The position numbers and the translations under genes were made by a program. Shown here one piece after another: positions 3,996 through 60,420 of a DNA stretch of 64,000 nucleotides. Source of the DNA: an uncultured Lachnospiraceae bacterium (GTDB lineage Bacteria; Bacillota; Clostridia; Lachnospirales; Lachnospiraceae); the NCBI GenBank assembly GCA_947382625.1, contig CANDAG010000001.1, positions 226,196-290,195 of the forward strand, given 5' to 3'. The notes under the pieces were generated by a model. The model made no database searches, was not told the DNA's origin, and worked only from the letters and a program-made list of their open reading frames with translations. How positions within the stretch are numbered: position 1 is the stretch's first letter; each line of letters opens with the position of its first letter.

Positions 3996-4093
3996 GAAAT
4001 TCAGAAATTGGTTTTTCGAAACTGGTTTCTAATAGATATCAAACGGGCTTGTGTGTTTTATACATGCAAGCCTTTAGATTTATGGAGGTGTAT

Positions 4094-9431: not shown

Positions 9432-9488
9432 AACTCCCTTTCGGGGTGGCAGGAAGTAAAACCTGTTCCCGGAAGGGAGTTGTTTTTT
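9432..9488. terminator. terminator between permease and arcC
   Basis: Arms AACTCCCTT (9432-9440) and AAGGGAGTT (9473-9481) form a nine-base-pair stem with a structured loop, followed by GTTTTTT. The complementary A-run on the left lets it act for the convergent carbamate kinase transcript as well; the arcC stop codon lies inside the T-run. Confidence 0.8.
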
Positions 9489-10422
9489 ATGCGGTGATAA
9501 CGGTTCCGGCCTTTCCCTTCAGGGCATCGGCAACGGATTCTAATGAGGTGATCAGTACGCTTCCCTCCGGATGGACGGAAAGATAGGTGATCGCCGCTTC
9601 TATTTTGGGAAGCATAGTCCCTTCCCCGAATTCACCCTCTGCAGCCATTTTTTTCGCTTCACTTAAGGTGAGGGCAGAAATGGCTCTCTGGTCTTCCTTT
9701 CCAAAGCTCTGATATACATTGGGGACAGAGGTCAGGATAATAAGCTGGCCGGCATTTAAGTCGGCAGCCAGTTTTCCGGCAATGGCATCCTTTTCGATTA
9801 CGGCTGAAGCACCCTTTAAGGCGTGCTGCTGTTCAATGACGGGAATTCCGCCGCCGCCGCAGGCGATCACGATCTGCCCCGCCTCTGCCAGAGTGCGGAT
9901 GGCTTCCAACTCCACGATTTCAATAGGCTTGGGAGCAGCGATAATGCGGCGGAAGCCCTTGCCGGGTTCCTCCTGTACATAATTGCCCTTCTTTATTTCT
10001 ATTTCAGCATCATCTGCGGACATATGACGGCCGATCAGCTTGGTAGGTTCATAAAATGCCTCATCGTAAGGGTCTACAGTCACCTGGGTTAAAATGGTGG
10101 AGACAGTCTTGCTGATCCCCCGGCTTAAGAGTTCTGCCTTCAGGGAATTCTGGATATCATAGCCTACATACCCCTGGCTCATGGCGCTGCACACGCACAT
10201 GGGAGCAGGGGTGTAATCAAGGTAAATACGACGCAGCTCTGTCATGGCCTTGTGTATCATGCTGATCTGGGGGCCATTGCTGTGGGTGATGGTGAGCTGA
10301 CAGCCTGCCTCCACCAGATCCGCAAGGGCTCTGGCAGTTACCTTGACGGCGCTGCGCTGTTCCGTGGTGGTGTGGCCTAATGCGTTATGTCCTAATGAAA
10401 CTACTGTTTTTTTCATAGTCAT
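9487..10422 (-). CDS. arcC: carbamate kinase
   Basis: Cytoplasmic enzyme making ATP and carbamate from carbamoyl phosphate and ADP, the last step of arginine deiminase or related purine and agmatine degradation. The 311 residues match the family length. Visible motifs include VVSLGHNALG at the start, THSNGPQI (phosphate binding), IACGGGGIPV and EKDAIAGKLAADLNA. The start at 10422 (MTMKKT) has AAAGGA seven bases upstream. No arcA or arcB neighbours are present, so the source of carbamoyl phosphate lies elsewhere. Its upstream region carries one copy of the TGAT-loop palindrome with an embedded TATAAT. Confidence 0.93.
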   Translation of the reverse strand: MTMKKTVVSLGHNALGHTTTEQRSAVKVTARALADLVEAGCQLTITHSNGPQISMIHKAMTELRRIYLDYTPAPMCVCSAMSQGYVGYDIQNSLKAELLSRGISKTVSTILTQVTVDPYDEAFYEPTKLIGRHMSADDAEIEIKKGNYVQEEPGKGFRRIIAAPKPIEIVELEAIRTLAEAGQIVIACGGGGIPVIEQQHALKGASAVIEKDAIAGKLAADLNAGQLIILTSVPNVYQSFGKEDQRAISALTLSEAKKMAAEGEFGEGTMLPKIEAAITYLSVHPEGSVLITSLESVADALKGKAGTVITA

Positions 10423-10539
10423 GTCTTAATCCTTTTGATGGTTTAATCTTCTTTTATTGGCGGTTGCTGATAGAGCTTTCTGTTGATTTCCTTTTTGATG
10501 ATTTCGATTTCAGCTTCGGCGGCTTCCTGCCCTCCACGC

Positions 10540-10573
10540 GACCTACGCATGCATCAGCATGCTTCATTATACC
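10540..10573 (-). repeat. leader element, hairpin C copy 1, ahead of arcC
   Basis: Read on the minus strand, this copy has TATAAT (10566-10571), then GAA, then the hairpin GCATGC-TGAT-GCATGC, then TAGGTC, the first bases of a longer hairpin module that is missing here. The -35 region is poor. It belongs to the same family as copies near 27.9, 28.7, 37.4 and 43.8 kb and lies about 120 bases upstream of carbamate kinase in the sense direction. Confidence 0.75.
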
Positions 10574-24180: not shown

Positions 24181-24220
24181 ATATCAAACGCCGATACGCT
24201 CCGCGAATTGGCTTATTGAT
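24181..24220. repeat. CGCGAAGCG-family palindrome copy
   Basis: Element with outer arms ATCAAACGCC / GGCTTATTGAT and core GATACGCTCCGCGAATT. Read on the minus strand it matches two copies at 28163-28200 and 28242-28279 base for base over most positions. The remaining gap to 24364 holds a CCCGGGCCC-rich stretch but no gene. Confidence 0.65.
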
Positions 24221-24364
24221 AAAAAGCCCCCGGGCCCGAAGGACACCGGAGGACAAACTGGCAATCTCTTGTACAAATATTATACCACATGGGAACAAGG
24301 AAGGATTAAGTGGAGGCTTTTTAATCCAGACAGTGGAAGCTGTCAGCTAAATACGGCCATTGTT

Positions 24365-26893: not shown

Positions 26894-27127
26894 TTATTCA
26901 TGTTGGCCTCCCTTCTTCATATCACTTTTTCCTCCACAAACCGATATCGGCTCGTTGCTGATTCCAAGCATAATTCGGCTCTCCCGCAGTGTGCGGGCAG
27001 AATCATAATCATATTCCACAGTCTGTATATTCACGTTTGGATATCGTTCGTGAAGCTTCTTTAGAATACCCCGTTCGGCATCTCCTTTTCTGCACTCATA
27101 GGGTCTTACCTGCTGATAAAGTGTCAT
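26894..27127 (-). pseudogene. unrecognised ORF fragment
   Basis: Reads MTLYQQVRPYECRKGDAE, then HERYPNVNIQTVEYDYDSARTL, which looks like the end of a larger protein rather than a free-standing gene. No ribosome site of note was found. It faintly recalls C-terminal parts of 2-hydroxyacyl-CoA dehydratase-related proteins, but I would not assign it. Probably a remnant. Confidence 0.3.
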
Positions 27128-27215
27128 AAGCAGATCGCCAAAGCAGATGGCAAAATTGTGGTAAGACCGATTTCAAACATCAAATAACGATACAAGCTGC
27201 AAACATTCAAAGTGG

Positions 27216-27803
27216 CTATTTCTTAACTGTAATCCAATATCTTTTCATCAGACACCCATCAACATCTATCGTTTTCTCATAGACTCCGCCATTAGCAAGT
27301 ATTGTATTTTCACTGGCTTTATTCTTAACATCACAAGTGATAAGAAGTTTTTCTATTCCTATTGATTTTGCATTTTGTATATTTAAACGAAGCATTTCTT
27401 TTGCATAACCTTTGCCTCGTTCGGTGGGACGCACGGAATACCCACAATGTCCTCCCCACGTTCCAAGAATAGGATGATTTATATGGTGACGCAAATCTAT
27501 TACACCTACAACTTTGTCATCGCTCTTGCGTACAGCTAAATAGGTATGTGAAGGAACCATTGTTCCTGACTCTCTGCATGTTTCTTCATTTGACATAAGG
27601 ACAGTCCGCGAAGCGTGCTGTCCGTTGTTTTTTCTAAGTTCACATATTTTTATCCATTCCTCGGCAGACTTACTTACATCGAGCGATTTACAACCTGCAA
27701 ATTGGTCTTCATTTTGTGCATCATATTCCAGAATTTCCTGACGAAATTGCCATATATCATGCACATACTTCTTCTGAGGCTCTATCAATGCAATTTGTTC
27801 CAT
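27216..27803 (-). CDS. GNAT-family N-acetyltransferase with in-frame insert
   Basis: Acetyltransferase of 195 residues. The conserved block VVGVIDLRHHINHPILGTWG is followed by the acetyl-CoA motif GYSVRPTERGKGYAKEML and the C-terminal ENTILANGGVYEKTIDVDG. Between the N-terminal part and SHTYLAVRKSDDK there is an extra segment, NNGQHASRTVLMSNEE, not expected in relatives. Its DNA is a 25-base palindrome (27599-27623). The protein probably still folds, as the insert is in a loop. It is transcribed through a tandem array of leader hairpins at 27848-28045. Confidence 0.85.
   Translation of the reverse strand: MEQIALIEPQKKYVHDIWQFRQEILEYDAQNEDQFAGCKSLDVSKSAEEWIKICELRKNNGQHASRTVLMSNEETCRESGTMVPSHTYLAVRKSDDKVVGVIDLRHHINHPILGTWGGHCGYSVRPTERGKGYAKEMLRLNIQNAKSIGIEKLLITCDVKNKASENTILANGGVYEKTIDVDGCLMKRYWITVKK
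27599..27623. repeat. palindrome inside the GNAT reading frame
   Basis: Arms GGACAG and CTGTCC enclose TCCGCGAAGCGTG, with the same CGCGAAGCG core as intergenic copies elsewhere in the window. It keeps the reading frame open and encodes part of an apparent extra loop. Confidence 0.6.
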
Positions 27804-27847
27804 TCTAATCTCCCCAAATTTCGATTGTTACTTTGGTTGTGCGATAT

Positions 27848-28045
27848 GTCGCAAGGAGGGACCCACCGTAGGTAGGAGGATTCCTTACGACCAATGTCAT
27901 AAGGGGTACCATCGAAGATGGGGGATTCCTTATGACCAATACACGTATCAGCGTGCTTCATTATATGATGTCGCAAGGAGGGACCCAACGTAGTTGGGAG
28001 GATTCCTTACGACCTGCGCACGCATCAGCGTGCTTCATTATACCA
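27848..28045 (-). repeat. tandem array of leader hairpins ahead of GNAT gene
   Basis: Read on the minus strand, the order is C (28014-28045), A (27970-28013), C (27937-27965), B (27896-27936), A (27848-27891), then the GNAT gene at 27803. C is a hairpin GCACGC-TGAT-GCGTGC directly behind TATAAT. A and B are 41-44 base hairpins with outer arms GTCGTAAGG or GTCATAAGG and inner stems such as CCCAAC/GTTGGG or CCATC/GATGG. Copies differ mainly at paired positions. The array would form most of the 5' leader of the GNAT mRNA. Confidence 0.85.
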
Positions 28046-28066
28046 TAACATCACTTTAGCATTCAA
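28037..28066 (-). promoter_or_regulatory. promoter feeding the leader array
   Basis: On the minus strand TTGAAT (28061-28066) and TATAAT (28037-28042) are 18 bases apart. The -10 box belongs to hairpin module C, so the transcript would begin at the hairpin itself. Confidence 0.6.
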
Positions 28067-28150
28067 ATGCTGTTATATTTTTCTTGTAAGACAGAAGCTA
28101 TCGTGCTATAATTCAAGTCATCAATTAAGCATTGAGTGAAAACGATCTGT
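28064..28150 (+). promoter_or_regulatory. promoter module for Rpn gene, duplicated at 32683
   Basis: TTGTAA (28084-28089), a 17-base spacer and TATAAT (28107-28112) make a good promoter. The surrounding 87 bases recur at 32683-32770 with about 85% identity by eye, including both boxes. The module lies 280 bases upstream of the interrupted Rpn gene here and directly before an unrelated gene there. Confidence 0.65.
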
Positions 28151-28162
28151 AAGGCGTTCTTT

Positions 28163-28279
28163 ATCAATAAGCCAGCTCATGAAGTGACGGCGTTTGATAT
28201 CTACAGGAAAACTATTTCCAGTCTGATCAATTCCATGCTTAATCAATAAGCCGATTCGCGTAGTGCGATGGCGTTTGAT
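28163..28279 (+). repeat. two copies of ATCAATAAGCC...GGCGTTTGAT palindrome
   Basis: Copies at 28163-28200 and 28242-28279 share the outer arms ATCAATAAGCC and GGCGTTTGAT; the second has the core GATTCGCGTAGTGCGAT. They match the inverted copy at 24181-24220. They occupy the leader between the promoter and the Rpn gene start. Nothing else is seen in 28280-28429. Confidence 0.7.
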
Positions 28280-28429
28280 TTCCATTAAACTTATTGTTAC
28301 CAAATCACATGTGAAAAAGGCAGGAGATTTCAGACAGGATGGAAATGTTCCGAATAATGAAAGCTTTATCAGGATTTGCCGTAAAACAGGTTCCTTTATA
28401 TCCCAATGCCTCCCGCAGAAGGAGAAAGA

Positions 28430-29419
28430 ATGGGAGTATCCAAAGAGAAAAAAGACATTGTTGAGAAAGAGTTCCTGTCCTACCCTGATATTGCGGCGGA
28501 CACGATCGGAGCCCTGCTATACTGCGGCAAAGCCGCCATAGATGCCGGAAAGCTGTGGCCGGGGCCGACAGAGACCATTTACCAGGGAAAGGATAGCTTC
28601 CGGAGCCAGTTTGAGGATGTCTGCAAATACGAGATGGGGGAAGGGCAGCAGGTCAGGCTCATGTATCTGATCGCCAATCAGACCCGGACGGATGGAAAAA
28701 TGCTTTTCCGAAAAGCAGGCAATAAATGAAGCACGCTGATGCGTGCGCAGGTCGTAAGGAATCCTCCCACCTGCGGCGGGTCCCTCCTTGCGACATTATA
28801 CATAGGAGGCGTTTACCGGGAACAGTACGAGGGCAGGATGAAAAATACTTTCCCTGTGATAGAGATCGTACTCTATTGGGGTAAAAGTAGATGGATGAGT
28901 AGCCGGAACCTCAGACGGATATTCCGAAAACGGGGACTCACGGATGAGGAATGGAACTACATAGACGAGCTGAAGCTCCATGTATTCGAAATGAGGTATT
29001 TACCGGAAGAAACAAGGGCTCTGTTCCGGAGTGATATGCGGATCGTAGTAGATTTTCTTGCGGAAGGGGAGAACTACCGTTCCACACAAAAGATCACCCA
29101 TAAGGCAGCATTGATCAAAATGCTCAAAGTGCTTTCGGGGGATGTGGATACAGAGGGTGTTGCAGGATGGCTTGAGGAACAGGGAATCAGAGAGGAGGAT
29201 GAAATTACCATGTGTGAATTATTTGACCAGTATGAGCGGAAAGGCAGAAGTGAGGGACTTATTGAGGGAATAGAAAAAGGAACGTCCATAGGAATGGACA
29301 AACAGCTGGTAACCGATATAGACAATGCCATGAAATTTTTTAAGGTTACGTTGGAAAAAGCCTGTGAGGGGCTGGGAACGACAGTCAGTAAATATGAGGA
29401 AGCCAGAAAGCTTGTTTAG
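28430..29419 (+). pseudogene. Rpn-family (PD-(D/E)XK) nuclease gene interrupted by a leader element
   Basis: Recombination-promoting nuclease/transposase-like family. The first part (28430-28729) reads MGVSKEKKDIVEKEFLSYPD, then YEMGEGQQVRLMYLIANQTR and LFRKAG. The second part (from about 28804) resumes GGVYREQYEGRMKN, FPVIEIVLYWG, and ends with a DEITMCELFDQYERKGRSEG tail typical of Rpn proteins. Between them lies a C-A leader element (28725-28794) that brings a TGA stop at 28727-28729. The two parts are in the same frame, so only this insertion breaks the gene. AAGGAG precedes ATG 28430. The second part is open from an ATG at 28739 inside the element. Confidence 0.82.
28725..28794 (+). repeat. 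leader element (C plus A hairpins) inserted in Rpn gene
   Basis: Hairpin C is GCACGC-TGAT-GCGTGC; hairpin A (28751-28794) has outer arms GTCGTAAGGA and TCCTTGCGAC. It runs in the direction of the host gene. Compared with other copies the TATAAT box is altered to AATAAA-like sequence. Left and right borders lie next to AATA and TATACATA, so a short target duplication is possible but not certain. Confidence 0.85.
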
Positions 29420-29423
29420 CTTT
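29404..29423. repeat. 20-bp direct repeat, left copy
   Basis: CAGAAAGCTTGTTTAGCTTT covers the last codons and stop of the Rpn gene. An identical copy is at 31150-31169, at the end of the HipA-like gene. Inside it AAAGCT and AGCTTT form a perfect small palindrome. The two copies bracket about 1.7 kb with truncated genes. Confidence 0.8.
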
Positions 29424-29492
29424 AAAGATAGAATGCATTAAAACTGGCGGATCTGCAGCAAGGAGGAACCTGTCACAGATAGGAGGATTTTT

Positions 29493-29759
29493 ATGAGTTC
29501 TTTGTTTCAATCGACAAGAAACACCCGAGTGTTGCCGACAGGTACCATGCGATACATCCGAAGTGATGTGCCGGAAAATCTGACTGCCAAAGAAATGCAG
29601 TGGTTGCTGGATAATCATATTACCACTATTATAGACCTGAGATCGAAGGAAGAAGCTGCCAGAACACCGTGCTGTCTCAAAGAGCAGAGTGGGTTCAGGT
29701 ATGTTCATCTTCCGGTCACAGGTGGCGGCGATTATTTTGAAAAGACTTGGATTCTGTGA
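29493..29759 (+). pseudogene. tyrosine/dual-specificity phosphatase fragment
   Basis: Only the N-terminal third is present: RNTRVLPTGTMRYIRSDVPE, WLLDNHITTIIDLRSKEEAA and YVHLPVTGGG match Firmicute tyrosine phosphatases of about 250 residues. The catalytic HCxxGxxR part is missing. The frame ends at TGA 29757. In another frame the following bases read RLGFCDEVIIDDYMHYKLQW, which looks like the end of a GNAT protein, so two gene fragments seem joined here. A good AGGAGG site remains upstream. Confidence 0.65.
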
Positions 29760-32682: not shown

Positions 32683-32770
32683 CAAAATGCTGTTATATTT
32701 TGTTTGTAAGGCAGAAACCATCATGCTATAATTCAACTTACCAGTTAAGCATTGGATGAAAACGATCTAT
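32683..32770 (+). promoter_or_regulatory. second copy of the Rpn-type promoter module
   Basis: TTGTAA (32704-32709), 17 bases, TATAAT (32727-32732). The whole block is about 85% identical by eye to 28064-28150. It drives the small membrane-anchored protein at 32787 and may have replaced or copied the upstream region of an Rpn gene. Confidence 0.65.
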
Positions 32771-32786
32771 AGTAGGTATTATATCA

Positions 32787-33230
32787 ATGAAAAAACTATC
32801 AGTTACTGTTATCTTAATAATCTTTATCGGTTTACTGGCTGTTTTGGCAGCATCACCTGTCATAAATAACCGTATGGCGAAGAACACGGCAGATAAGCTG
32901 GTGGATCAGCCGCTTCCCGATGACACTGAATTTATTGAGAGCATATACAGGGCAGGAAAATTAGTCGGAAATGGCAATGGAATGCAGTATTTTGGAGCTA
33001 TTCTGATCAAAAGTGAACTTCCTGTGGAAAAACTGAAAGAGTATTATTTAAGCTTTGCGGGAAATGAGTGGGAGTGTATGGTTGAAAAGCAGACAGATGC
33101 AGATATAAAAATTATCGAACATGAGCAGCTTACATTTAAAACGGCTATAAAGGGAGATGATTATTATATTGTTTATTCATGGGGAGACAATAACACTGTT
33201 TTTCATGAATTTGATATAAGAGGGCACTGA
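32787..33230 (+). CDS. membrane-anchored or secreted hypothetical protein
   Basis: Protein of 147 residues. Residues 5-25 (SVTVILIIFIGLLAVLAASP) form a signal anchor; no lipobox cysteine follows. The rest is predicted outside the cell: LPDDTEFIESIYRAGKLVGN, then LIKSELPVEKLKEYYLSF, and YIVYSWGDNN. Similar short proteins are frequent in clostridia and unassigned. The ribosome site is weak (AGGT). It uses the duplicated promoter module. Confidence 0.7.
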   Translation: MKKLSVTVILIIFIGLLAVLAASPVINNRMAKNTADKLVDQPLPDDTEFIESIYRAGKLVGNGNGMQYFGAILIKSELPVEKLKEYYLSFAGNEWECMVEKQTDADIKIIEHEQLTFKTAIKGDDYYIVYSWGDNNTVFHEFDIRGH

Positions 33231-35376: not shown

Positions 35377-37275
35377 TCAGCTCAGCTTCAGAACCTTCCG
35401 GTCATAGGTCATAAGGCCGTTGACTTCCTCTTCCACATCGGAAAGCTGTGTATACACAGCGCCGCTAAGTCCCTGCTTTTTAAGAGGAAGCAGGGATTTT
35501 TCTATCAGCTCCCGGTAAGCGGCGGCAAATTCCTCCAGGCTTTCATAGCGTTTGTAGCCGAAAATCCGCTCCAGGCTGGAATGGTCTTTGATATGACAGG
35601 CATAGCCGCCATACTCGGAGAGGAAAAAGGCTCTCCCGTCCTGCCATTTTTCCCTGGAAGGGACGGTAAGGGGACGGAAGTAATTATGTACGCTGACGAA
35701 ATCCCCGCAGCCCTGGTCGAACCAGCCGCTGGCAGAGTCGATCAGCCGGGACGGGTCCTTTTTTCTGACAAGCTCAGTGATCCGGGAAGCGTCAAACTGC
35801 CCCCAGCCTTCATTGAAAACGGTCCAGATGGCAATGGAGGGAAAGAATCTCAGATAGTCGATGGTCTCCAGGCATTCTTTTTCCCATTCTCTGCGGAATT
35901 TCGGATCCTCCATGGCCAGCAGGTCATAGTGGGAGTCCTTAAAGCCGGCGGTAAATCGGGAGGACAGGGTGGGAAGATAGCTGACGATGGAGGAACGATA
36001 ATGTCCGCCGCCGTTGACCATATCCTGGCAGACGATCATGCCGAGACGGTCGCAGTGATAGTACCATCTGGCGCTTTCCACCTTGATGTGCTTACGCAGC
36101 ATATTGAAGCCCAGATTTTTCATGACAGTGATGTCATAAATGAGGGCTTCCTCGGAAGGGGCGGTGTAAAGACCGTCCGGCCAGTACCCCTGGTCGAGTA
36201 CGCCCATAAGGAAGCAGGGCTTGTGATTCAGACAAAATACCGGCGTCCCTTTTGGTGCTTCAATGGAGTAATGGCGCATGGCAAAGTAGCTTGACACCTG
36301 ATCTTCCCCAAAGGAAAGCTTTACCTGATACAAAAAGGGAGTTTCCGGGCTCCAGCTGTGGAAGGCTTCCTCCGGGATGGTGAAGGAGAGGGAAGCGGTG
36401 TATCCTGTGGCAGCATCGGACGAGTCAGTGCAGGACGAAATTGGACTTTGGGAAGCAGCGCCTGGGGAAATCGTTTCCGGGGTGGGTGTCTTTTGGGTGC
36501 AGGAAATACCAAGGGATATACTTTGCCGGAGTAGCTCCCTTCCTTCACAGTGGACAGACAAACAAAGGGAGGGAACCTCTTTTCCTGTGACTGCTTCTAT
36601 ATGGGCGGTTACCTGTCGGGCATCGTAGTCTGTCTCAAACCACAGACTTTCCAGGTGGGATTCGGGAACCTGTTCCAGCCACACGCTTTGCCAGATGCCG
36701 CTCTGGGCTGTATAAAAAATGCCGCCACGGTGCAGGGACTGCTTTCCTCTTGGCTGCCCCCCTTCCTCGGTGGGATCCTGTACTCTGATAAGGAGATGAT
36801 TATCTTTATCCTTCAGAAACTCAGTGATGTCCGCATGAAAGGGCAGATAGCCTCCTTGATGGGAGATGACCGGATGGCCGTTCAGGTAAACTTCGGCCAG
36901 ATAATCCACTGCTTCAAAGTGCAAAATGGTGCGACGCCCCGAAGAAAGGGGGAATTCGAGGCAGGGAAGTGTTCTTTGATACCAGAGATACTCACCGGGC
37001 CGCAATTGCCGGTTCACGCCGGAGAGGGTGCATTCCGGGGAAAAGGGTACAAGAATTTTGCCGTCAAATTGTGTAGGAAAAGCTACATTTGGAGTGATGG
37101 CATAGTCCCAGTACCCGTTCAGGGACAGGAAGGAATCCCGCTGAAGCTGTGGGCGGGGGTATTCGGGCAGCACATTTTCAGGAGTAAGAGCTTCCCCCCA
37201 GATCGTGGTAAGAGGGATAAGCCGGTCTTTTTCGTGAGGACGGATGATGCTTTGGATAGCGCTTTTTAAATTCAT
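35377..37275 (-). CDS. glycoside hydrolase family 2 enzyme
   Basis: Retaining beta-glycosidase of 632 residues without signal peptide. The sugar-binding domain shows YWDYAITPN, LWYQRTLP, VYLNGHPVISHQGGYLPFHADITEFL. The catalytic barrel has the acid/base Glu in WTVFNEGWGQFDASRI and the nucleophile Glu in FFLSEYGGYACHI. A serine- and threonine-rich insertion near residues 265-300 is unusual. Activity could be beta-galactosidase, beta-glucuronidase or beta-mannosidase. CAAAGGAGA precedes the start. Its leader contains two B hairpins and one C hairpin. Confidence 0.88.
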   Translation of the reverse strand: MNLKSAIQSIIRPHEKDRLIPLTTIWGEALTPENVLPEYPRPQLQRDSFLSLNGYWDYAITPNVAFPTQFDGKILVPFSPECTLSGVNRQLRPGEYLWYQRTLPCLEFPLSSGRRTILHFEAVDYLAEVYLNGHPVISHQGGYLPFHADITEFLKDKDNHLLIRVQDPTEEGGQPRGKQSLHRGGIFYTAQSGIWQSVWLEQVPESHLESLWFETDYDARQVTAHIEAVTGKEVPSLCLSVHCEGRELLRQSISLGISCTQKTPTPETISPGAASQSPISSCTDSSDAATGYTASLSFTIPEEAFHSWSPETPFLYQVKLSFGEDQVSSYFAMRHYSIEAPKGTPVFCLNHKPCFLMGVLDQGYWPDGLYTAPSEEALIYDITVMKNLGFNMLRKHIKVESARWYYHCDRLGMIVCQDMVNGGGHYRSSIVSYLPTLSSRFTAGFKDSHYDLLAMEDPKFRREWEKECLETIDYLRFFPSIAIWTVFNEGWGQFDASRITELVRKKDPSRLIDSASGWFDQGCGDFVSVHNYFRPLTVPSREKWQDGRAFFLSEYGGYACHIKDHSSLERIFGYKRYESLEEFAAAYRELIEKSLLPLKKQGLSGAVYTQLSDVEEEVNGLMTYDRKVLKLS

Positions 37276-37325
37276 GGTATCTCCTTTGATGCCAAATTAA
37301 ATGGATTTTGATCATTGTAACATAT

Positions 37326-37444
37326 GTCGTAAGGGGTACCATCGAAGATGGGGGATTCCTTACGACCAAATGTCATAAGGGGTACCATCGAAGATGGGGG
37401 ATTCCTTATGACCCATACGTGCATCAGCACGCTTCATTGTAACA
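37326..37444 (-). repeat. leader element (C, B, B) ahead of the GH2 gene
   Basis: On the minus strand: TACAAT (37436-37441), hairpin C (GCGTGC-TGAT-GCACGT), then B hairpins at 37372-37412 and 37326-37366. The two B copies are identical except for the paired change GTCAT/ATGAC versus GTCGT/ACGAC. The element ends 50 bases before the GH2 start codon and points towards it. Confidence 0.85.
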
Positions 37445-37560
37445 TGTTCATGCAACAATTACTATTTTTAAATGGAATTATTGATTTCTGGATACTGAAG
37501 TTGTATGATTATGTTGAAAAGTAGCATCATATTAAGAGTAAGATTTCAATGGAGATTATT

Positions 37561-43803: not shown

Positions 43804-43876
43804 TTGTTGATGCCCCTGGAACGTAGTATAATAGGAAGCGCACTGATGTGCGCGTAGGTCATAAGGAATATTAAAA
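43804..43876 (+). promoter_or_regulatory. promoter with leader hairpin C and truncated B
   Basis: TTGTTG (43804-43809), 17 bases, TATAAT (43827-43832), then hairpin GCGCAC-TGAT-GTGCGC (43838-43853) and GGTCATAAGGAAT, the first part of module B, after which the similarity stops. The start site would fall at the base of the hairpin. It precedes the MGH1-like glycosidase gene by 26 bases. Confidence 0.78.
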
Positions 43877-43901
43877 AGTCATTCCGCAAAGGGGTATAAG
43901 C

Positions 43902-46685
43902 ATGAAAACAAAAAAATTTAAAGAGCCCATAGATCTGCTGCCCGACTGGGGGCCCTATTCCAAGAAATATATGGGGATCTCAAAGGTAGTATCTGACGCA
44001 CCGATCCCGGGGGCCAGGTTTGACTGTGTGGTGCATCCTATGCTGGCAAATACAAACCAGCCTGCGCCTAATGTAACCTTTCCCTCCTCCTGGCATATAT
44101 GGGAGGCGGCGCCTGATCTGTCCTATTATGCCTGCCGGGTGGAAATGGAGTGGAAGGATCAGGTCTACGCGGATGTTTCCTTTGCGAAGGTGGACGAGCA
44201 TACGAGGCTGATCCGGACGGAGTATGTAAACCATACGGATATGGATCAGAACTGTGTGCTGAACTATTACTTTTCCATGGAGTATCCAAGGAAACAGATG
44301 GTAAGGATTTCCGGCGACGGGCCCTTTGTGTATCAAAAGCTGACAGACTATGATACCCTGGAATTCGGAACGCCCCGGCCATGGGATCACCTGATGCCGG
44401 ACGGACTGCACAGAGGCGAGTTTTTTGACCCTCTGTTTCTGGAAGGACGGGGACTGGGGGACAGAGTTGTGGGGAATTTCCATTCTACGGATGGACTGAA
44501 GGCCTTTGGACAGGAAAAAGGGGATCGCGTGAGTTTTTCTATGGAGACGGAGGAGGACTTTGACAGGCTTACCTTCCGTTACAGGACCACCGGAGATGAG
44601 GATGGAGTCTTTATCCTGACGGTAAAAGGGGAGGATGGCAGCACCTGCATTTCTCAGAGGCTGGTGTTTCCTGCCTCACAGGAGCTTACGTTTCTCGCTG
44701 ATCCGGTGGATTTTTCTGCGGCGCCTGTGAAGGAAGCTTTACAAGCAGGCTCCAAAGAGAAGAAATATAAGAAAAAGCTGCAGATCCTCCTTGAAGCGGA
44801 AGGAAAGGGCGGGATTGAATTCGATTTTGCCGCTCTTCATTACAAAGAGGCCCCTGTAAAAACCTCAAGTTGCAAACCCGAATTTGAACCGGAATGCCGG
44901 AAGGCAGGAGATGGCTTTTGCTTTACCTATGAGGGCGTTCCGGAAACCTTTGGTTTCCTGCCCTTGACAGGGCAGCTGCGGGAGAGGCATCTGGCCACCG
45001 GGACCATCGAGGATGCGCTGGTGTCAAGGCTTTCTCAGGCAGATCCTTCTTTTGACCGCCTGACGGAGACCTTTACCTCTGCTTTTCAGCAAAAGCACAG
45101 TGACGAGGGGTTCTATGAGAACTTCATTGTCCATTCCATTTTTATCCCGGCAGGACAAAGCCATGTGGAGTATGCTCTGGTAGGAGATGTTTCAGGGAAG
45201 GAAGGGCTAAAGCCCATAACAGCTGATGAGGCGGAGGCAATCTATCAGAATGCGCGAAAGGCAGTAAGGCCTCTTGACTATAATCCGGACGGGGAGAGCT
45301 ATACCTTAAGCAACCGGATCCTGCAGGCAACGCTGTTGACTAATGTGGTCTATCCTATTTACCGGCATGGGGAATGGATCAAGCATCACACGCCGGGAAA
45401 GCGGTGGGACAGCCTTTACACATGGGACTCCGGCTTTATCGGACTGGGGCTTCTGGAGTGTGAGCCGAGGCTGGCAGAGTATGTCCTTGATCTGTATTTA
45501 AGCCAGCCGGAGAATCCGGATTTCGCTTTTTTGATGCATGGTTCCCCGGTTCCCGTACAGGCCTATCTTTATCTGGAGCTGCTCCAGAGAAGCGGGGATA
45601 AAAGCAGGCTCCTTTCCTGGTATCCCAGGCTGAAAAGATATTACCGTTTCCTGGCAGGGAAGGGGGAGGGCTCGGTGACCGATTCCTTTAAGAGCCGTCT
45701 GACCACCACCTTTGACTATTTTTATAATTGCAGTGGTATGGATGACCTTCCGCCTCAGGTAGAAATGTACCGCCTGGGAAAGAAAGCTGACTGTGCGCCG
45801 GCCCTTACTACCTCCCAGCTCATCCGCATGGCGAAGGTTTTAAGGATGACAGCCGCAGAGCAGGGGCTTTTAGAGGATGTCAGAGAGTATGAGGAGGATA
45901 TCGCCCTGCGTACAAACGCCCTGCAGAGCTTTGCGTGGGATGAGGAGAGCGGTTATTTTGGCTATGTGGTCCATGACCAGGACAAAAATCCCATCGGAGT
46001 GTTCCGGACGGCAGAGGGAGAGAACCTTTCCAAGGGAATGGATGGCATTTACCCGCTGATCGCCGGCGTCTGCACTAAGGAGCAGGAAAAAATACTGCTC
46101 TCCCATATCTTTTCCGAAAAGGAAATGTTCTCCCGGGTGGGTGTCAGCGCTGTTGACATGTCCGCCGGCTATTATCAGCCAAACGGTTACTGGAACGGGA
46201 ATGTCTGGTTTTCCCATCAGTGGTTTATCTGGAAGACCATGCTGGATTTGGGGAGAGGGGAAGAGGCGTACCGGATCGCCCGGACGGCTTTAGACGCCTG
46301 GAAGCGGGAGGTGGACCATTCTTACTATACCTTTGAGATGCTCAATATCGCCACCGCAAGAGGAGGATGGTTCCATCAGTTCGGAGGGCTTTCATCACCC
46401 GTCAATATCTGGGCGGCGGCTTATTATAAGCCCGGCACGGTGACCTGCGGGTTCGACCTGTGGATACAGTCTCAGGTCTATGACAAGGAGACGGATGGAT
46501 ATGAGCTGACAGTGACAAACTACGGGGATAGAGAAGAGATTCTTCTGGCAGTGACAAAAGCCCATTCCCGGCCGGAGGCCTATGTGAACGGTACGCCGGT
46601 TCCTGTGGTTTGCCGGACGAAGGGGGCGGTAGAGGTGACCATCCCGGCAGGGATCAAAGAAGGAAGAATTGTAATAAAAAGTTAA
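43902..46685 (+). CDS. MGH1-like (GH63-related) glycosidase
   Basis: Large cytoplasmic protein of 927 residues. The N-terminal half is beta-rich. From about residue 470 there is an (alpha/alpha)6 barrel of the trehalase/GH63/mannosylglycerate-hydrolase type, with KRWDSLYTWDSGFIGLGLLE (a likely acid Asp) and GYWNGNVWFSHQWFIWKTML. The C-terminus has a small beta domain (YELTVTNYGDREEILLAV). Substrate could be an alpha-glucoside or a glucosylglycerate-like compound. No signal peptide. Expressed through a leader hairpin element. Small cupin and HD genes follow. Confidence 0.75.
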   Translation: MKTKKFKEPIDLLPDWGPYSKKYMGISKVVSDAPIPGARFDCVVHPMLANTNQPAPNVTFPSSWHIWEAAPDLSYYACRVEMEWKDQVYADVSFAKVDEHTRLIRTEYVNHTDMDQNCVLNYYFSMEYPRKQMVRISGDGPFVYQKLTDYDTLEFGTPRPWDHLMPDGLHRGEFFDPLFLEGRGLGDRVVGNFHSTDGLKAFGQEKGDRVSFSMETEEDFDRLTFRYRTTGDEDGVFILTVKGEDGSTCISQRLVFPASQELTFLADPVDFSAAPVKEALQAGSKEKKYKKKLQILLEAEGKGGIEFDFAALHYKEAPVKTSSCKPEFEPECRKAGDGFCFTYEGVPETFGFLPLTGQLRERHLATGTIEDALVSRLSQADPSFDRLTETFTSAFQQKHSDEGFYENFIVHSIFIPAGQSHVEYALVGDVSGKEGLKPITADEAEAIYQNARKAVRPLDYNPDGESYTLSNRILQATLLTNVVYPIYRHGEWIKHHTPGKRWDSLYTWDSGFIGLGLLECEPRLAEYVLDLYLSQPENPDFAFLMHGSPVPVQAYLYLELLQRSGDKSRLLSWYPRLKRYYRFLAGKGEGSVTDSFKSRLTTTFDYFYNCSGMDDLPPQVEMYRLGKKADCAPALTTSQLIRMAKVLRMTAAEQGLLEDVREYEEDIALRTNALQSFAWDEESGYFGYVVHDQDKNPIGVFRTAEGENLSKGMDGIYPLIAGVCTKEQEKILLSHIFSEKEMFSRVGVSAVDMSAGYYQPNGYWNGNVWFSHQWFIWKTMLDLGRGEEAYRIARTALDAWKREVDHSYYTFEMLNIATARGGWFHQFGGLSSPVNIWAAAYYKPGTVTCGFDLWIQSQVYDKETDGYELTVTNYGDREEILLAVTKAHSRPEAYVNGTPVPVVCRTKGAVEVTIPAGIKEGRIVIKS

Positions 46686-60234: not shown

Positions 60235-60285
60235 TCGGTGTCCTCCTGTTTATGGCACAAGTATATACTTGCCAATGCGTGTAAG

Positions 60286-60328
60286 GTCATAAGGAAGCCG
60301 TTTGGCTTTATTAGCATTTTCTTATGAC
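60286..60328 (+). repeat. diverged B-type leader hairpin near the Rpn gene
   Basis: Outer arms GTCATAAGGAA and TTTCTTATGAC match module B, but the inner part (GCCGTTTGGC) differs. Just before it, CCAATGCGTGTAAG resembles the end of module C, and CAAGTATATACTTG (60259-60272) is a perfect palindrome. By its sequence it points rightward, away from the Rpn gene. Confidence 0.55.
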
Positions 60329-60420
60329 ATTTTCCCTGCCGACAGGAGAAAGCCTTTTCGCCTGCCTGCATCTCAGTGACTAATTGCTTTGAATGAGTGG
60401 CGAAAAGCCGGAACTCAAGA

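Follow-up and report, generated by a model that had tools for sequence, protein, structure and literature searches.

The short repeat that precedes several genes of this DNA is probably a mobile, non-autonomous element whose insertions fall directly 3' of −10 hexamers, point in the direction of transcription and duplicate the hexamer. This conclusion draws direct support from the dispersal of the repeat, from pre-existing boxes at most of the empty sites that could be aligned, from duplications specific to each locus, from a bias in orientation, and from tandem arrays in which the local flank is repeated. The copies first noticed lie in a window of 64,000 nt (contig CANDAG010000001.1, positions 226,196 to 290,195) from an uncultured Lachnospiraceae bacterium whose genome, labelled G000, comprises 4.18 Mb in 113 contigs and is 88% complete.

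Structure of the repeat and its copies in the window

The repeat unit is about 68 nt long and consists of hairpin C, which has a TGAT loop, followed by either a 43-nt hairpin A or a 40-nt hairpin B. On the gene strand hairpin C reads GAAGC-RYRC-TGAT-GYRY-GC, with TGA(T/A/C) as the loop variants among copies; hairpin A reads GTCGTAAGGAATCC...CTCCTTGCGAC and hairpin B GTCATAAGGAATCC...CCCTTATGAC, and the 5' arms of these two long hairpins have AAGGAATCC in common. Read along the gene, the order is host flank (often TGnTATAAT), GAAGC or AGGAAGC, hairpin C, a short linker, hairpin A or B, and a GACA end. Inspection of aligned units revealed no clear terminal inverted repeat, such as a MITE would have, between the GAAGC... 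and ...GACA ends. The copies at L001, L002, L003, L006 and L023 retain only hairpin C and a short remainder of A. No Rfam family matched the window at gathering score, and a search of positions 27000–29500 at E values up to 5 gave two weak snoRNA matches, both beside the element and none over it.

All five loci singled out in the initial annotation proved to be real copies of one repeat with every described part present (Table 1). The "TATAAT-like" box ascribed to them was an exact TATAAT at three loci and TACAAT (37436–37441) at the GH2 locus, and was weak at the remaining one, where the unit starting at 28728 is preceded only by AATAAAT (28721–28727). As delimited by the covariance model R1 (see below), the whole array occupies 27848–28036 at the GNAT locus and 37326–37435 at the GH2 locus, both on the minus strand. 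As to the genes, the GNAT, GH2 and MGH1-like assignments passed their Pfam cut-offs and carbamate kinase passed that of AA_kinase, scoring 319.5 bits against TIGR00746 (cut-off, 358.25); the Rpn assignment was weak, the sole match of the ORF after the element at 28728 being Transposase_31/YhgA-like at 16.8 bits, which is below cut-off. The genes downstream of the copies in the window are otherwise unrelated, as had been stated.

Table 1. Copies of the repeat, adjoining boxes and duplications, and neighbouring genes in the window.
Position	Strand	Feature	Basis
9487..10422	-	Carbamate kinase gene, downstream	AA_kinase cut-off passed
10528..10565	-	Truncated unit, hairpin C and remnant of hairpin A	R1, hairpin C pattern
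10566..10571	-	−10 hexamer TATAAT (TGGTATAAT)	Sequence
27216..27803	-	GNAT acetyltransferase gene, downstream of array	Pfam
27848..27894	-	Further hairpin A of second unit	Partial R1 hit, contig 254043-254089 (G000:C1)
27895..27959	-	Second unit, hairpin C and 40-nt hairpin B	R1 hit, contig 254090-254154 (G000:C1)
27960..27965	-	Second TATAAT between units, repeating the local flank	Sequence
27969..28036	-	First unit, hairpin C and 43-nt hairpin A	R1 hit, contig 254164-254231 (G000:C1)
28037..28042	-	−10 hexamer TATAAT (TGGTATAAT), upstream of first unit	Sequence, flank statistics
28728..28795	+	Unit C-A within split Rpn/YhgA-like ORF	R1; TGA stop at 28727-28729 spans left junction
35377..37275	-	GH2 gene, downstream	Pfam
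37312..37323	-	Downstream copy of 12-nt duplication ATGTTACAATGA	Sequence
37326..37369	-	Second 40-nt hairpin	R1
37371..37435	-	Unit, hairpin C and hairpin B	R1
37434..37445	-	Upstream copy of 12-nt duplication ATGTTACAATGA	Last two bases overlap unit start
43827..43832	+	−10 hexamer TATAAT	Sequence
43835..43888	+	Truncated unit, hairpin C and 5' arm of hairpin A	R1
43902..46685	+	MGH1-like glycosidase gene, downstream	Pfam
60264..60329	+	Degenerate sixth copy, no clear −10 box	R1, E=0.0046

Another dispersed repeat, TTTATCAATAAGCC...GGCGTTTGATATC, was seen at 28065–28290 of the window, with copies at 32685–32788, 24209–24230 and 4018–4045; it is unrelated to the element.

Dispersal and folding in the genome and its genus

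Dispersal, which had been claimed from the five loci, was evident in the genome as a whole. The hairpin C pattern, with at most one mismatch, was found 24 times on the forward and 27 times on the reverse strand, compared with once on each for the reversed control pattern; the core hairpin pattern gave 23 matches and its controls none, and a DNA query of 211 bases had 40 matches at E values up to 10. We aligned 32 units, derived a consensus fold in which 8 of the 20 predicted pairs showed at least one double compensatory change, and built from it the covariance model R1. The search with this model, a check that the initial annotation had proposed, yielded 64 matches in the same genome at E values up to 10 as well as copies in relatives. 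Exclusion of 15 matches that were weak or opposite-strand shadows left 49, which group into 31 arrays, each with between one and four model hits. At an E value of at most 0.01, R1 had matches in seven of the 37 genomes examined from the genus: 13–55 in each of six, and a lone degenerate copy in G030. The claim that the element adds a structured leader was likewise upheld.

A conserved fold in a leader raises the question of whether the repeat is kept for a role in mRNA, its 5' stem-loop protecting transcripts or sequestering the ribosome site in a shared post-transcriptional regulon. Hairpin A holds CCUCCUU, the covariation is strong, the repeat lies directly behind the promoter, and the truncated copies retain the −10 box and hairpin C, all of which fit such a role. 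Working against it are the lack of relationship among the downstream genes of the window, the location of several copies inside or after genes, and the distribution of the core pattern, which had 7–23 hits in six genomes of the genus and was absent from the remaining 31 of 37. Counts of G-U versus A-C oppositions in the stems were mixed: 29 versus 24 by hand in the 32-unit alignment, 15 versus 36 in 86 diverse hairpins, and 47 versus 22 in a third set whose selection favours G-U. These counts contradict one another between sets and cast no clear vote for function as a sense RNA. We consider maintenance for an mRNA role rather unlikely.

Empty sites in relatives

The reading that we prefer, insertion behind an existing −10 hexamer, was compared with orthologous sites that lack the element. 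We searched the genus (37 genomes) with the joined flanks of 24 of the 31 arrays of the own genome and of 16 arrays from relatives, and fetched stretches of relatives for comparison. Among the 24 loci inspected, 10 could be aligned across the junction and 14 were too diverged or rearranged; with this split, which was judged after viewing, one −10-like hexamer (at least 5/6) was present at the insertion point at 7 of the 10 alignable empty sites, in 16 empty alleles. The chance of a 5/6 match within one base of a random position in the same stretches is 4.8%, at which rate 7 of 10 corresponds to p = 6e-8. The alleles in question carry TATAAT in G022, G030 and G024 and TATACT in G034 at L023; TAGAAT in G028 at L102, where the flanks are 92% identical; TATAAT in G034 and G021 and TAAAAT in G000 at L094; TATAAT in G032, TATGAT in G035 and TACAAT in G019 at L398; and a −10-like hexamer in G030 at L046, in G021, G031 and G034 at L029, and in G007 at L395. 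The clearest case is L395, at which the relative reads GTGATATAATTTATAATATTGG and the occupied allele reads GTTATAAT-element-GTTATAAT-TTATAATATTGG. At the remaining three alignable sites, L008, L032 and L106, there was no −10 at the insertion point; at L008 the relatives have a −10 about 22 nt upstream of it. The number of empty relatives suggests that the direction of change was gain rather than loss.

These alleles bear on the proposal, made in the initial annotation, that the element is a mobile promoter-leader that carries its own −10 box and leader and so places genes under common control. That proposal accommodates the exact TATAAT before about half of the copies, the agreement of their direction with that of the gene, the TATAAT between many tandem units, and the relatives at L008 and L106 that have no such box where the element is inserted. 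With the box already in place at most of the alignable empty sites, however, it is largely refuted for the upstream box, and the boxes differ between loci and match within them, as expected of locus-specific duplications. We found no −10 box that belongs to the mobile unit itself, and the box appears to be mostly the host's; a promoter-supplying element is quite improbable.

Flanking duplications and −10 hexamers

Insertion next to a host hexamer was also reflected in the flanks of occupied sites. We compared upstream and downstream flanks for the 53 of 65 arrays with a recognisable hairpin C (22 from the own genome and 31 from relatives), a set in which a few may be false hits, which leaves aside the own-genome copies consisting of C only, and whose relatives' arrays are those of fetched loci rather than all matches. 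The mean local score was 6.89 within a locus and 5.19 between loci (sd 0.188), and the p value of 5e-5 is the floor of 20000 permutations; the result held separately for the own 22 and the relatives' 31. The true partner was the best or tied-best match in only 13 of the 53, because TATAAT is common to most flanks. The target site is thus duplicated, as in a MITE, in a form specific to the locus and with the hexamer included, which is why occupied sites often have a box on both sides. At resolved loci the duplicated stretch is about 7–8 nt, and it reaches 11–14 nt at L024, L013, L040 and L399. Duplications other than TATAAT included ATTAAGG in L032 and TATGACATAGT in L013. The stretch between units of tandem arrays varies in the same way, being TATGACATAGT in L013, ATAATTAAGG in L032 and AGAAATACGG in L010, and resembles the upstream flank of the array to which it belongs.

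An exact TATAAT was present upstream in 27 of the 53 arrays (1.0% of control windows), and TGn with at least 5/6 of TATAAT in 25 (0.9% of controls). Downstream of the last hairpin the exact hexamer occurred in 20, so that insertion often adds a second copy of the box there. Against −10 targeting, 18 of the 53 matched TATAAT at fewer than 5/6 positions upstream. Of 66 arrays, 47 had a hexamer agreeing with TATAAT at 5/6 positions or better; among these, matches of at least 4/6 to the −35 sequence peaked at a 17-nt spacer (9 of 47), other spacers reaching 6 of 47. The excess of TGn and −10 matches together with this peak indicates that many of the sites look like real promoters, often of the extended −10 type.

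The same flanks could have been produced by a DNA transposase with a plain preference for AT-rich targets resembling TGnTATAAT, without any link to transcription, promoters being struck for the motif alone. It is common for IS families to make duplications and to have AT-rich targets; PMC7780238, for example, describes 8-bp A/T-rich duplications made by ISCth4, of the IS256 family. Some targets, moreover, have no promoter in the relatives (L032, L106). What speaks against a preference for the motif alone is the −35 peak, modest as it is, since it falls at the correct spacer and lies outside the duplicated stretch; the orientation of the copies follows the genes, although the motif by itself would give that too. 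We regard a plain motif preference as a plausible account that falls somewhat short of an even chance.

A further repeat of larger size (GTCCGCG..GCAGTGAGCAGTGC ... ACTGCGGACA) directly adjoins the element at sites of the same kind, at about 1590–1760 of L105 and in the flanks of L090 and L045. In L105 it is bordered on both sides by GATATAAT, as if another family used the same target.

Orientation and copies within genes

Orientation was taken from automatic ORF calls. For the 31 arrays of the own genome, the next downstream ORF was co-directional in 22 and opposing in 4, and 5 arrays lay inside an ORF of the opposite strand, some of these being shadow ORFs. The initial annotation had all five of its copies pointing with the gene that they precede or occupy; most do so in the own genome, where the strand bias that it had suggested examining is non-random (22 versus 4, p = 5e-4), and the exceptions just given show that the rule is not universal. 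The picture in the relatives was less clear-cut: of 33 rows, at least three of which are not copies (L092:988, L099:59 and L106:1757), the next downstream ORF was co-directional in 13 and opposing in 6, another 13 lay within an ORF, and for 1 no ORF was called.

Four distinct genes in three genomes (L049, L054, L109 and L096; L177 is the same gene as L096, and L294 the same as L109) have an antisense copy at the same site that is open in frame. The one of these four that was scanned matched AAA-ATPase_like and PDDEXK_9 of Pfam, and the in-frame insert in such AAA/PD-(D/E)XK-type genes reads CRKEGP..GRIP(C/Y)DLRxxQR. A related repeat lies antisense at a putative ispE gene, which we take to be such from its start, at L107 (G028, 1501–1620) and L112 (G006); its arm AAGGAGGG is at the position expected for the ribosome-binding site.

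Search for a mobiliser

No autonomous copy of the element was seen. We looked for a parent IS with the same ends among three transposition families, namely Y1, reverse transcriptase and IS256, and none fits all carriers. Reverse transcriptase was not found in carriers G000, G019, G028 and G034, and IS256-type transposase was not found in G000, G019 and G036. Each family was therefore missing from some carriers and was rejected as the mobiliser; single absences are weak, because the genomes are drafts. Single-linkage clustering of the ORFs of the 110 fetched loci gave no recurrent neighbour transposase; the large families that it returned, presumably ABC transporters, response regulators, MATE proteins and the like to judge from their representatives, were accompanied by the AAA/PD-(D/E)XK genes that hold a copy.

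The results for Y1 bear on single-strand transposition of the IS200/IS605 type, in which TATAAT would be the 5' target motif, no duplication would arise, and the TATAAT on the right would represent the terminus of the element itself. A constant position and orientation 3' of a motif, and hairpins at the ends, are all features of such a process. The right-hand sequences, however, do not form a constant end but resemble the left flank of their own locus; no Y1 transposase turned up in carrier G034, which is 94% complete, or in G036, at 59%, and none of the 21 of 30 fetched Y1 loci that were searched with R1 was flanked by the repeat (best E, 0.57). We hold this type of transposition to be highly improbable.

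REP, BIME and REPIN sequences are dispersed hairpins without genes of their own that go with RAYT (Y1) transposases. Our element is likewise made of dispersed hairpins and has no genes, and differs in its duplicated flanks and in that Y1 genes do not co-occur with it. As Y1 was not found in two carriers, one of them 59% complete, and none of the Y1 loci searched was flanked by the repeat, we rejected membership in the RAYT-mobilised REP/REPIN class.

Model for insertion and comparison with known systems

We propose that the element would preferably enter directly behind the −10 hexamer of a promoter, in the sense direction, and that a trans-acting enzyme would make staggered insertions duplicating about 7–14 bp, the hexamer included, to leave a −10 box on both sides. 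Arrays might then grow by slippage or by recombination between the duplicated boxes. The first base of the hairpin C stem lies 3–6 nt after the hexamer; given the usual spacing between a −10 box and its start site, transcripts from the captured host promoter would therefore be expected to start at or inside this stem. In that case numerous genes with nothing else in common would probably share one fold at the start of their messages.

Several observations run counter to insertion behind −10 hexamers as a complete account. The length of the duplication varies from 7 to 14 nt, which is unusual for one DDE enzyme; L008, L032 and L106 had no −10 at the insertion point; neither terminal inverted repeat, autonomous copy nor mobiliser was seen; and there are antisense copies within ORFs. 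A tentative extension, which we find possible without favouring it, is that the machinery targets the −10 region melted by RNA polymerase, that is, the transcription bubble, cuts the strands about 7–14 nt apart around the hexamer, and in this way takes over active promoters in sense orientation. Integration at transcription start sites has a precedent in yeast, where the LTR retrotransposons Ty3 and Ty1 integrate at Pol III starts. The element would share with them a tie between insertion and start sites, and unlike them it shows no link to a reverse transcriptase. If bubble targeting is true, it would be a bacterial counterpart of integration targeted to start sites, and each new copy would at once be transcribed from the promoter that it had invaded.

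Other short repeats of bacteria show partial likenesses. BOX elements of Streptococcus pneumoniae (boxA-boxBn-boxC), compared here by description rather than by sequence, are, according to PMC3049150, also modular and dispersed, with a middle module in variable tandem number and a predicted RNA structure, and are seen as parasitic. Their terminal inverted repeats are said there to resemble ISSpn2; unlike them, our element revealed no such repeat or donor IS, and it is inserted at −10 boxes with duplication of the hexamer. Correia elements of Neisseria are similarly short, interspersed and often immediately upstream of genes, and they affect transcription, one copy being described immediately downstream of the mtrCDE promoter (PMC10969869). 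The same text describes Correia elements as having promoters of their own, whereas here the promoter box is the host's and a position behind it is the rule. Rickettsia palindromic elements, as that source presents them, resemble ours in having copies open in frame inside protein genes. They differ in that the in-frame copies here are in one gene family and most copies of the own genome lie outside genes. In the openly available literature we found no account of the repeat or of any element with −10 boxes as its target.

The usual view of short repeats in bacteria is that they settle in AT-rich DNA between genes or carry promoters with them; the present one is found mostly at a pre-existing −10 hexamer, which it duplicates, and runs in the direction of transcription. 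If this is confirmed, many unrelated genes would share one structured 5' end and their start sites would be multiplied, and the element would offer a natural system for asking whether open promoter complexes steer transposition. The analysis also names individual promoters, putatively captured in this way, from one group of Lachnospiraceae.

Wider distribution of the hairpin core

In a sample of the family, the core pattern was present in 18 of the 299 genomes drawn, the own genome included, with up to 41 hits per genome and none for the controls. At least 120 stretches with the core occurred in the collection of named species; among the 80 that were listed, nearly all came from records labelled as Lachnospiraceae or as clostridial genera, the exceptions including five loci of Treponema and one under the label Bacteroides. 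The exact core pattern was absent from the viral contigs of IMG/VR, and a 142-base query gave no match among phages and plasmids at E values up to 0.01. In G127 and G288, which represent two other genera, the hairpin core was joined to different partners, and the 20 loci viewed by eye lay between genes or near tRNA genes and not obviously at −10 boxes. The core is thus wider than the unit that targets −10 boxes, and we limit our claim to the C-type unit of the genus.

In the Treponema records (L172, L173, L194, L215 and L218) the same core lies inside a longer conserved palindrome; its occurrence there possibly reflects horizontal transfer. In L108 and L112 of G006 we observed a variant whose first hairpin, GCAGACGC..GCGTCTGC, is longer and whose outer stems are GTGAT/ATCAC or GTAAT/ATTAC; this variant is repeated in tandem with a period of about 91–96 nt.
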